NCBI GenBank assembly: GCA_035765775.1
Contig: DASTWV010000055.1
Span: 124,001 to 188,000 of the forward strand
DNA: 64,000 nt
Origin: Actinomycetota bacterium
Lineage (GTDB): Bacteria; Actinomycetota; CADDZG01; JAHWKV01; JAOPZY01
Direction of reading: 5' to 3'
Within the stretch, counting starts at the first letter, position 1. Each line of letters opens with the position of its first letter. Under the pieces are notes generated by a model. It was not told the DNA's origin. It saw only the letters and a list, made by a program, of their open reading frames with translations, and did no database searches. The position numbers were made by a program, and so were the translations under genes. Below, piece after piece: positions 27,931 to 30,903 of the stretch.

Positions 27931-28025
27931 GGCGCTGGCAGCATAATCCTCCAGGCGCGGGGCTCTGGCGCCGAACTAACATTGACGCGGCAGGCAGTGA
28001 AGCACGGTGGAAGGAGGGTGGCCAC

Positions 28026-28103
28026 ATGACCGGCGACATACCGCATAGTCCGTCGCGCCACCCGTCTCCCGCGCTGCACCTGTTACCCCCGCACGGCCGC
28101 TAG
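28026..28103 (+). CDS. Proline-rich leader peptide (uORF) of metal-transport operon
   Basis: ATG at 28026 follows the near-perfect Shine-Dalgarno AAGGAGG (28011-28017) by 8 bases, far better than most genes here. The 25-residue peptide starts MTGDIPHSPSRHPSP and ends HLLPPHGR, with six prolines and four histidines. Codon 20 is TTA, very rare in this GC-rich sequence, and is followed directly by CCC CCG. The TAG stop (28101-28103) touches the first base of stem A of the leader. Proline-rich leader peptides sense Mg2+ or proline supply upstream of enterobacterial mgtA (mgtL), so a similar role is inferred; homology is not claimed. Too short for normal gene calling. Confidence 0.6.
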   Translation: MTGDIPHSPSRHPSPALHLLPPHGR

Positions 28104-28202
28104 CCCCGCTGCCACACCGGCCCCCCCACACCGGGAGGGCCATCTCCTGGCGGCGGGGCGGACCACACCGCCGCTGCTTCCGCCCCGTAGCCGACTCCGA
28201 CT

Positions 28203-28222
28203 CTCGGCTGCGCCGAGCTTTT
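28203..28222 (+). terminator. Terminator-like hairpin upstream of MgtE-N/CBS gene
   Basis: CTCGGC-TGC-GCCGAG is a 6-bp perfect stem with a 3-base loop followed immediately by CTTTT, the only U-tract of this kind near a start codon in the window. It ends 14 bases before the ATG and three before the AGGAGGTGA ribosome binding site, so it can act as an attenuator or sequester translation. Confidence 0.6.
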
Positions 28223-28236
28223 CCAGGAGGTGAGCC

Positions 28237-29586
28237 ATGTCCCGCATACCGCCGCTCCCCGGCCGGCGCGTCCTGCAGAACTACCGCGTGGGACGCAGCC
28301 AGCGCCTGCTCACCCTGAAGAACGTGCGCGAGTCCCTGGTGTCGGTGGCCGGCATCGTGGGGCGCCCGGTGCGCAACCAGGCGGGCGAGGAGATCGGTCG
28401 TGTGCGCGACGTCGTCGTGAAATGGGCCGGCGACGACGAGTACCCTCCGGTCACGGGGTTGGTCGTGGGGATCGGCCGGCGGGAAGCGTGGGTACCCATC
28501 GAGCAGGTCAGCCGGCTGGCGGCCGACGGCGTCGAGTTGTCCTCCGCCCGCCTGGACCTGCGTGACTTCGGGCGGCGCGAGGGCGAGGTGACCATGATCC
28601 GCGACGTCATCGACCACCAGCTGGTGGACATCGACGGCGTCAAGGTGGTCCGTGCCGCCGACCTCTACCTGGCCCCCGTCCAGGGGGTCTACCGGCTGGT
28701 GGGCGTCGATGTCAGCGCCCAGACGCTGCTCCGCCGCCTGGGCCCCGCCCGGTGGCGGACCACCGCCACCCCCGACCGGGTCATCGACTGGGCGGCGATC
28801 CAGCCCTTCGGCACGCCGACCGGCCCCACCGGTGAGGTCCGGCTGCGCACGCCGCACCAGGGCCTGCGCCGGCTGCGTCCGGGCGAGCTGGCCGACCTCC
28901 TGGAGGAGCTGAGCCACCGGGAGCGCCGGGAGCTGCTCTCGGTGCTGGAGCCGGAAGCCGCCGCCGACGCCCTCGAGGAGATGGAGCCCCGGGAGCTGAA
29001 CGCCCTGCTGCAGGAGTCGCCCCCCGAGGAGGCCGCCGAGCTGGTGGCCCGGATGGAGCCGGACGAGGCGGTGGAGGCGCTGCGCGACCTGGAGCAGGAG
29101 GACCGGGACGAGCTGCTGGAGCTGATGCCGGCGGAGGCGGCAGACCACCTCACCCGGCTCTTGGACTACGACGACGACACCGCCGCCGGGCTCATGACCA
29201 CCAACCTCGTGCTGGTGGGCCCCGACGAGCGGGTCGAGGAGGTCCGGGACCGCCTGCGCACCATGGAGGGCCACCAGGTGGACATCGACGCCGTGATCGT
29301 GGTGGACGCCGACGGCGGCGTCGTGGACGACGTCACGCTCTTCGAGCTGTTCGTTGCCGAGCCCGGCACCCGGATGGCGGAGCTGGCGGGCCCGCCGCCC
29401 GCGGTCACCATCCTGGCGGACGCACCGGCCGAGGAGGTGGCCGAGCGCCTGATCGACAACCGGGGCTCGTCCCTGGTGGTGGTGGACGACGAAGGCCGCC
29501 CGCTGGGACGGATCCTGGCCGACGATGTCGTCGACGCGCTGGTGCCCGGCCGGGGCCGCCGGCTCTTCCCGGCCCACCCGGAGTAG
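28237..29586 (+). CDS. Soluble PRC-barrel/MgtE-N/CBS protein, probable regulator of adjacent Nramp transporter
   Basis: The 449-residue protein has two PRC-barrel-like segments (about residues 33-110 and 115-170, starting VSVAGIVGRPVRNQAGEEIGRV), an MgtE N-terminal superhelical domain (about 205-305, with LADLLEELSHRERRELLSVLEPE and repeated EE-x-AAE helices) and a CBS pair (about 320-440, LMTTNLVLVGPDERVEEVRDRL and GSSLVVVDDEGRPLGRI). The membrane domain of MgtE is absent. In MgtE the N and CBS domains sense cytosolic Mg2+ and gate the channel; here they probably sense metal for the Nramp protein encoded nine bases downstream. AGGAGGTGA precedes the ATG. The acidic helices offer many Mg2+-binding carboxylates. 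Confidence 0.88.
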   Translation: MSRIPPLPGRRVLQNYRVGRSQRLLTLKNVRESLVSVAGIVGRPVRNQAGEEIGRVRDVVVKWAGDDEYPPVTGLVVGIGRREAWVPIEQVSRLAADGVELSSARLDLRDFGRREGEVTMIRDVIDHQLVDIDGVKVVRAADLYLAPVQGVYRLVGVDVSAQTLLRRLGPARWRTTATPDRVIDWAAIQPFGTPTGPTGEVRLRTPHQGLRRLRPGELADLLEELSHRERRELLSVLEPEAAADALEEMEPRELNALLQESPPEEAAELVARMEPDEAVEALRDLEQEDRDELLELMPAEAADHLTRLLDYDDDTAAGLMTTNLVLVGPDERVEEVRDRLRTMEGHQVDIDAVIVVDADGGVVDDVTLFELFVAEPGTRMAELAGPPPAVTILADAPAEEVAERLIDNRGSSLVVVDDEGRPLGRILADDVVDALVPGRGRRLFPAHPE

Positions 29587-29595
29587 CGCCCGCCG

Positions 29596-30903
29596 GTGGA
29601 GGCTGCCCCCGACGCGGTGGAGGAGACGCCGGCCGAGCATGCCCGCCGGGCGACGCTCGCGCCCCGCCGGCCGTCACCCCTGCGCCGCGCCCGGCGCTAC
29701 CTCCTGGTGCTCGGGCCCGGGCTGATCGCCGCCAGTGCGGGCAACGACGCCGGCGGCATCGTGACCTACGCCTCGGCGGGGGCCCAGTTCGTCTACCGCA
29801 CCCTGTTCCTCATGGTGCTGATCACCGTCTCCCTGGTGATCGTCCAGGAGATGGCGGCCCGGCTGGGGGCCTTCACCGGCCAGGGGCTGATGTCGCTGAT
29901 CCGGGAGGAGTTCTCGCTGCGGGTGGCCACCTTCGCCGTGGTGTGCCTGGTGATCGCCAATGTCGGCCTGGTGGTCGCCGAGTTCGCCGGCATCGCCGCT
30001 GCCTTCGTGCTCTTCGGGGTCTCCCGCTACGTGTCGGTGCCCATCGCCGCCGTGGTGATCTGGGGGGCCGTGGTCTTCGGCACCTACCGGTACGTCGAGC
30101 GGGTGTTCCTGCTGCTGTCGCTGGTGTTCTTTGCCTACCCGGTGGCGGCGATCCTGGCCCATCCCCACTGGCACATGGTGGCGGCGCAGACGGTACTGCC
30201 CCACTTCTCGGAGAGCAAGGCGTTCCTGCTGCTGGCCGTCGCCCTGGTGGGGACCACCATCACTCCCTACATGCAGCTGTACCAGGCCGCGGCGGTGGCG
30301 GACAAAGGGATCGGCCCCGAGGAGTACCCGCTGGAACGGGTCGACGCGGTGAGCGGTTCGATCTTCTCCAACCTCATCGCCATGGCCATCATCGTGGCCA
30401 CCGGGGCGGCGATCGGCGGGAGCGGCGTGCTGGTATCGGCCAAGGCGGCGGCCAGCGCGCTGCGGCCGGTGGCCGGCGGGGGCGCGGTGGCCCTGTTCGC
30501 CATCGGCCTGCTGGGCGCCTCGGCCCTGGCGGCCGCGGTGGTGCCGCTGTCCACCGCCTACGCCCTGGCCGAGGCGGTGGGGGCGGAGCGGTCGGTGTCG
30601 CGCCGGTTCTCCGAGGCCAAGGTCTTCCTAGGGCTCTTCACCGCCCAGATCGCCATCGGGGCGTTGCTGGCGCTCAGTCCCGGGAACCTGTTCAGCCTGC
30701 TGATCGGCACCCAGGTGCTCAACGGGCTCATTACGCCGATCATCCTGGTGTTCATCCTGATCCTCGCCAACCGGCGGAGCCTTCTGGGCGCGGCGGCCAA
30801 CGGCCGCGTCCTCAAGCTGGTGGCCGGCATCTGCATCGCTGCGGTGGGCACCCTGTCGCTCGTGGTCTTCGGCCAGACGGTCTTCGGCTGGCTCCACCTC
30901 TGA
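29596..30903 (+). CDS. Divergent Nramp-family divalent metal transporter
   Basis: The 435-residue protein has a hydrophilic N-terminus of about 35 residues and eleven likely membrane helices. The helix-1 metal motif, DPGN in classical MntH/Nramp proteins, reads NDAGG with Asp51, and the helix-6 MPH motif is replaced by ITPYMQLYQ. Such changes mark distant Nramp relatives, some of which carry Mg2+ instead of, or besides, Mn2+. Tight linkage with a soluble MgtE-N/CBS protein supports Mg2+ or Mn2+ as substrate under metal feedback, but selectivity cannot be read with certainty. The GTG start at 29596 is nine bases after the upstream stop, so the two genes are surely cotranscribed. Confidence 0.88.
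   Translation: MEAAPDAVEETPAEHARRATLAPRRPSPLRRARRYLLVLGPGLIAASAGNDAGGIVTYASAGAQFVYRTLFLMVLITVSLVIVQEMAARLGAFTGQGLMSLIREEFSLRVATFAVVCLVIANVGLVVAEFAGIAAAFVLFGVSRYVSVPIAAVVIWGAVVFGTYRYVERVFLLLSLVFFAYPVAAILAHPHWHMVAAQTVLPHFSESKAFLLLAVALVGTTITPYMQLYQAAAVADKGIGPEEYPLERVDAVSGSIFSNLIAMAIIVATGAAIGGSGVLVSAKAAASALRPVAGGGAVALFAIGLLGASALAAAVVPLSTAYALAEAVGAERSVSRRFSEAKVFLGLFTAQIAIGALLALSPGNLFSLLIGTQVLNGLITPIILVFILILANRRSLLGAAANGRVLKLVAGICIAAVGTLSLVVFGQTVFGWLHL

Follow-up and report, generated by a model that had tools for sequence, protein, structure and literature searches.

A short upstream reading frame (uORF) in front of a magnesium transport operon, found in the 64,000-nucleotide stretch of actinobacterial DNA analysed here (the window), probably acts as a switch, operated by ribosomes, through which magnesium uptake is adjusted. 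We assign a probability of about 0.55 to the reading that it encodes a cis-acting leader peptide, Mg2+-responsive in the manner of MgtL, which tunes the expression of Mg2+ transport. Judged by comparison of leader sequences, the uORF is a member of a widespread family and not a curiosity of a single genome. If this reading is true, a Mg2+ leader-peptide system would exist outside the enterobacteria and would be common to three unrelated transporter families.

The uORF, its Shine-Dalgarno sequence (SD) and the two genes behind it are listed in Table 1. Base-by-base reading bore out the description given in an earlier note on this DNA, namely an SD followed by a 25-codon frame rich in Pro (six codons) and His (four), in which codon 20 is TTA and is followed by CCC and CCG. 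As in MgtL-type systems, the operon of a Mg2+ transporter is preceded by a short uORF in its 5' leader. The Mg2+-sensor-like gene and the metal transporter that the note had placed downstream were also recovered. The Nramp protein scores 322 bits against EleNRMT (7qia) versus 76 bits against the best MntH. When its metal-site residues were compared as described in PMC8806188, the helix 1 AGNDAGG segment was found to be common to EleNRMT, the helix 1 Asn being changed to Gly, and in helix 6 the Met of transition-metal transporters is replaced by Thr, where EleNRMT has Ala. By these sequence features the gene is of the NRMT type, a known type of Mg2+ transporter (PMC8806188, PMC4072509). An NRMT gene adjoining an MgtE-N gene is likewise a known Mg2+ arrangement, which is controlled by an M-box riboswitch in Clostridium (PMC4072509).

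Table 1. Features of the uORF leader and operon in the window (positions are those of the window).
Feature	Position	Strand	Remarks
uORF SD	28011..28018	+	AAGGAGGG, read base by base
Predicted SD-sequestering hairpin, 5' arm	28012..28023	+	AGGAGGGTGGCC
uORF	28026..28103	+	ATG (28026) to TAG (28101-28103), 25 codons, MTGDIPHSPSRHPSPALHLLPPHGR
Conserved core, codons 3-9	28032..28052	+	GDIPHSP, xPPS/xPHS variant
Near-invariant Ser codon	28047..28049	+	AGT in 71/73 cores
Predicted hairpin, 3' arm (anti-SD inside the uORF)	28056..28068	+	CGCCACCCGTCTC, codons 11-15
Stem A	28103-28113/28149-28159	+	11 pairs including one G-U; present, not conserved in relatives
Stem B	28154-28162/28179-28187		9 perfect pairs; overlaps stem A
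Terminator-like hairpin	28203..28222	+	CTCGGC-TGC-GCCGAG-CTTTT; present, not conserved, below scan threshold
SD of the PRC/MgtE_N/CBS gene	28225..28231	+	AGGAGGT
PRC + MgtE_N + CBS protein	28237..29586	+	449 aa; Pfam; soluble Mg2+-sensor-like partner
NRMT, Nramp-related Mg2+ transporter	29596..30903	+	435 aa; Pfam Nramp; AGNDAGG motif; Thr at helix 6 Met position

Similarity searches with the PRC/MgtE_N/CBS protein were used to retrieve related loci, 50 of which include 150 or more bases of upstream DNA. A uORF with a strong SD and Pro-(Pro/His)-Ser inside its first 11 codons was present in 45 of these loci and absent from the other 5, as compared with 6 of 2000 dinucleotide shuffles of the same DNA. 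The SD is of the GGAGG(TG) form in nearly all relatives, the uORF is 20-22 codons long in 35 of 47, and the median gap between its end and the downstream gene is 81 bases. Comparison of the related leaders confirmed that the 25-codon uORF is real and conserved, with its frame kept. The conserved portion is the N-terminus, xPPS or xPHS (for example, MxxSEPPST, MSPDQPPST, MKPSEPHST and MRRDEPPSS). In the nearest relative (L031), the downstream protein of which is 75% identical to that of the window, the uORF begins MPAGDIPHSP where the window has MTGDIPHSP; the seven residues are kept with only synonymous changes (in the codons for D, P and P). Past this core the two uORFs differ everywhere, including at TTA-CCC-CCG (codons 20-22). 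The earlier proposal that ribosomes pause at this triplet is not supported; it is codons 3 to 9 that are conserved instead.

The cores themselves, 73 of which were selected by the peptide motif alone, show an unusual codon constraint. Their Ser codon is AGT in all except two cases, both of which look spurious, although AGT accounts for 3.9% of the Ser codons of neighbouring main ORFs. In the same set, the third base varies in both core Pro codons with the Pro residues retained, and the core Glu position alternates between GAA and GAG, with Glu retained. The SD, the start codon (ATG, GTG or TTG) and the reading frame are retained across the family, and the spacing from start to core shifts in whole codons (MKPPS versus MxxxEPPS). 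Comparison of these sequences shows the core codons to be under selection. An acidic residue directly precedes the Pro pair in 53 of the 73 cores; the window instead has D-I-P-H, with Ile where most relatives have Glu and Asp one codon earlier, and many short cores (MKPPST) in front of a second, more distant NRMT clade have no acidic residue.

A recurrent RNA pairing was found in these leaders, in which an anti-SD within the uORF, located mostly in codons 11 to 18, base-pairs with the uORF SD and the nucleotides that precede the start codon, so that the start codon and the core lie in the hairpin loop. In 37-38 non-redundant leaders, this pairing exceeded that of dinucleotide shuffles (Stouffer z about -8) and of codon shuffles (-8.6). 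Among 23 diverged lineages, pairing was stronger between an SD arm and the uORF of the same leader than between that arm and the uORFs of others (p=8e-5), and likewise stronger between a uORF body and the spacer that follows it (p=1.8e-4), while pairing of the SD arm with the spacer, used as a control, showed no effect (p=0.29). Co-variation of SD:anti-SD and of body:spacer without SD:spacer is the pattern expected from a three-segment switch. Comparison thus shows a pairing that co-varies between lineages and by which the uORF SD could be sequestered at about codons 11 to 18. The window's own SD:anti-SD hairpin does not go beyond composition (z -0.5), because its uORF is C-rich. Systematic sequestration of the main gene's SD was not enriched across leaders. 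Pairing of the uORF SD with the EPPS codons themselves was considered and set aside, as only the MgtE pair and a number of the CorA leaders (see below) show it strongly, and family-wide it is weaker than pairing with the later uORF.

The near-invariance of AGT at the nucleotide level, together with the co-varying hairpin formed by this region, could also mean that an RNA element around GAACCCCCNAGT, either a binding site or a metal-binding fold, is what has been conserved, the reading frame being incidental. We consider this rather unlikely, since the Pro third bases and the GAA/GAG choice vary with the residues kept, and since the SD, start codon and frame are kept while the distance from start to core changes by whole codons. 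In addition, neither the window operon nor the uORF leaders sampled gave a match to any Rfam family.

A gene-blind pattern scan of 395 genomes from the class of G117 (Acidimicrobiia, as inferred from Microthrix-type members) yielded 26 matches, 23 of them at PRC/NRMT genes; in two of the latter (L099 and L109), the gene directly behind the uORF is NRMT. In the second NRMT clade, which has no PRC gene in front, the same motif is present in about 13 leaders, and most of the leaders showed neither a uORF nor an M-box. The phylum-wide gene-blind pattern gave 16 matches, including 2 at PRC/NRMT genes, 2 before MgtE and 1 before CorA, with the MgtE-preceding uORFs beginning MRSEPPSRRPRG and the CorA-preceding one reading VSGEPPSRRPRS. 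When the order of G069 was scanned, all 7 matches preceded CorA or MgtE (downstream genes assigned by Pfam), and VRSEPPS, its Ser again encoded by AGT, occurs in two more CorA leaders that were retrieved through their proteins alone. NRMT, MgtE and CorA have no common fold, the substrate alone being in common. Comparison shows the uORF to be tied to genes of three unrelated families of Mg2+ transporters.

Several matches were rejected. Phylum-wide matches starting ATGGCAACCGGAACCGTCAAGT look like the starts of cold-shock genes and not uORFs, L215 and L216 are out-of-frame matches within an ABC-transporter gene, and L088, L102, L108, L196, L200, L206 and L207 were taken as chance matches. A pattern search of the window genome revealed no obvious second copy of the leader, other loose-pattern matches occurring there at the control rate. 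Two further sequences may be variants: MRTEPSS(AGT)P, which precedes NRMT in L164, and MSEPSS(AGT)S, which in L020 precedes a gene of the MgtE_N/CBS type. At the edge of the L020 locus, which was fetched for its MgtE_N/CBS match, there is a fluoride riboswitch (RF01734; 30-96, minus strand). Four loci (L038, L063, L064 and L066) are titled Bifidobacterium breve yet have Acidimicrobiia-type operons, and their titles look wrong.

The range of downstream genes bears on the possibility that the uORF product is a small functional protein, such as a transporter subunit or regulator, rather than cis-acting, as D'Halluin et al. offer for the mycobacterial uORF2 (PMC12810186). We find this improbable: conservation is limited to about seven residues near the start, the remainder being free to follow the anti-SD pairing, and the same core serves three kinds of transporter without a common fold.

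In the GC-rich spacer between the uORF and the first gene, the earlier note had described two overlapping stems, A and B, and a terminator-like hairpin. Both stems are present in the window, stem B being missing from the minimum-energy fold; neither is conserved in relatives, in which the conserved pairing is that of the uORF SD with its anti-SD. The CTTTT hairpin exists as well, and the proposed pairing of GCCGA (28190-28194) with part of it agreed with a base-by-base check, in which AGCCGA (28189-28194) proved complementary to TCGGCT (28204-28209). The terminator scan found none, this hairpin missing the threshold, and nothing like it occurs at the corresponding place in L031. No conserved intrinsic terminator was seen across the leaders. 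The fold downstream of the uORF is modestly above chance (z -2.4 for 28104-28245; z -1.75 for the whole leader).

These results leave very little room for classical attenuation, in which stalling at Pro codons would sense the supply of charged tRNA-Pro (or His/Leu). The uORF is Pro-rich, and Salmonella mgtP does sense charged tRNA-Pro (PMC8092293), but only one or two Pro residues are conserved, His often takes the place of the second, and the sole fixed codon is Ser AGT. Neither a conserved run of codons for one amino acid nor a conserved terminator/antiterminator, as in trp/his-type attenuators, was found, and the downstream genes encode Mg2+ transporters, not amino-acid functions. A Pro-starvation attenuator is thus not indicated. 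That the uORF is a nonfunctional chance frame in a C-rich leader, as the modest structure scores in the window alone might suggest, is already refuted by the comparison with shuffled DNA and by the gene-blind scans that recover Mg2+-transporter genes.

In other actinobacteria (G024, G039 and G053), an M-box precedes the MgtE_N/NRMT pair. Four leaders of the second NRMT clade carry an M-box, and none was seen with both an M-box and the uORF. The M-box covariance model (RF00380) gave no match in the window operon, the window genome or the uORF leaders searched. Comparison thus shows the uORF standing in the slot where related operons have a Mg2+ riboswitch, where an RNA sensor would seem to have been exchanged for a ribosome sensor.

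Other frames were seen in M-box leaders. In L132, L138, L151 and L165 (class of G117), a frame CTG AGC GCN GAN ... (LSAD/LSAE) lies between the M-box and NRMT and might represent another kind of uORF with an early acidic residue. L172, with NRMT downstream, and L177 carry MDSEPGS and MESDPGS behind the M-box, with an AGT Ser codon, and these resemble the EPPS core. In L189 and L191, an AAGGAGGTGAGG SD is followed by a GERPS(AGT) and GDPAS(AGT) frame; these are possible members, in another family.

If the uORF is a Mg2+-responsive leader peptide, ribosomes would load on it during transcription of the leader and would slow or drop off within the first eight codons, on reaching the Pro-Pro/His-Ser(AGU) core, more so at low Mg2+. 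A ribosome held at the core could keep the SD arm away from the anti-SD, and the freed anti-SD segment could then pair with the downstream spacer, allowing operon expression. With ample Mg2+, the uORF would be read through, the SD:anti-SD hairpin would re-form and expression would be lowered, probably via Rho or translation and not via a conserved intrinsic terminator. Precedents are MgtL, at which ribosomes leave at EPDP at low Mg2+ (PMC11282234), and MgtQ, another Mg2+ leader ORF (PMC8092293). The acidic-Pro step would be weaker in the window, where Ile replaces Glu and Asp stands one codon earlier. The near-invariant AGT is not accounted for by the MgtL model and poses a sharp, testable question: why is one synonymous codon fixed? 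More tentatively, and at slightly less than even odds, there might be an actinobacteria-wide ribosome Mg2+ sensor in which the first eight codons, ending in the near-fixed AGU, make elongation Mg2+-dependent, and which replaced or complemented the M-box before NRMT, MgtE and CorA, with the mycobacterial uORF2 as one branch.

The comparison with mgtL made in the earlier note has been a good lead, as a conserved leader uORF does precede a Mg2+-type sensor/transporter operon. Enterobacterial MgtL and MgtQ, which act by intrinsic ribosome destabilization, are also short uORFs before Mg2+ transporters, with alternative RNA pairings overlapping the uORF; their acidic and Pro residues in the first codons have counterparts in most of the actinobacterial family, less clearly in the window (D-I-P-H). 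We claim no sequence homology to them; the actinobacterial uORF is distinguished by its xPPS core, near-fixed AGT and internal anti-SD, and it precedes NRMT, MgtE and CorA, whereas MgtL and MgtQ precede MgtA and MgtB. The NrmT operons with an MgtE N-terminal domain gene (Shin et al. 2014, PMC4072509) have the same gene pair as the window, but no leader peptide was found described in the accessible text of that paper. The M-box (ykoK) riboswitch stands at the equivalent place ahead of MgtE_N/NRMT operons of other actinobacteria and of Clostridium (PMC4072509), in contrast to its absence from the window genome and the uORF leaders searched. No description of the actinobacterial leader outside mycobacteria was found in full-text literature searches. 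The Mg2+ leader peptide as a kind is already known; what is new, as far as the literature could be searched, is this uORF family, together with the breadth of its occurrence, the constraint on its codons and the M-box exchange.

Among the closest known systems is also the mycobacterial uORF2 (Rv1805A/Rv1535A family), which lies downstream of M-boxes, is expressed in lacZ fusions and was called mycobacteria-specific (PMC12810186). Its copies in the retrieved loci read GGAGGTGA...MSPGDSPY, the Ser codon of the core being AGT, to be compared with MPAGDIPHSP in L031. Both have the GGAGGTGA SD, a Mg2+ context and a core, located near codons 5-7, that combines Asp, Pro and the AGT Ser codon; the window has the corresponding SD (GGAGGGTG), an early acidic residue, and Pro with an AGT Ser within nine codons. 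Unlike the window uORF and its relatives, which are without an M-box, uORF2 sits behind the riboswitch, and the mycobacterial set showed no SD:anti-SD co-variation. The similarity is short, and uORF2 is probably a relative of the window uORF family, which would give context to a uORF previously thought to be specific to mycobacteria.
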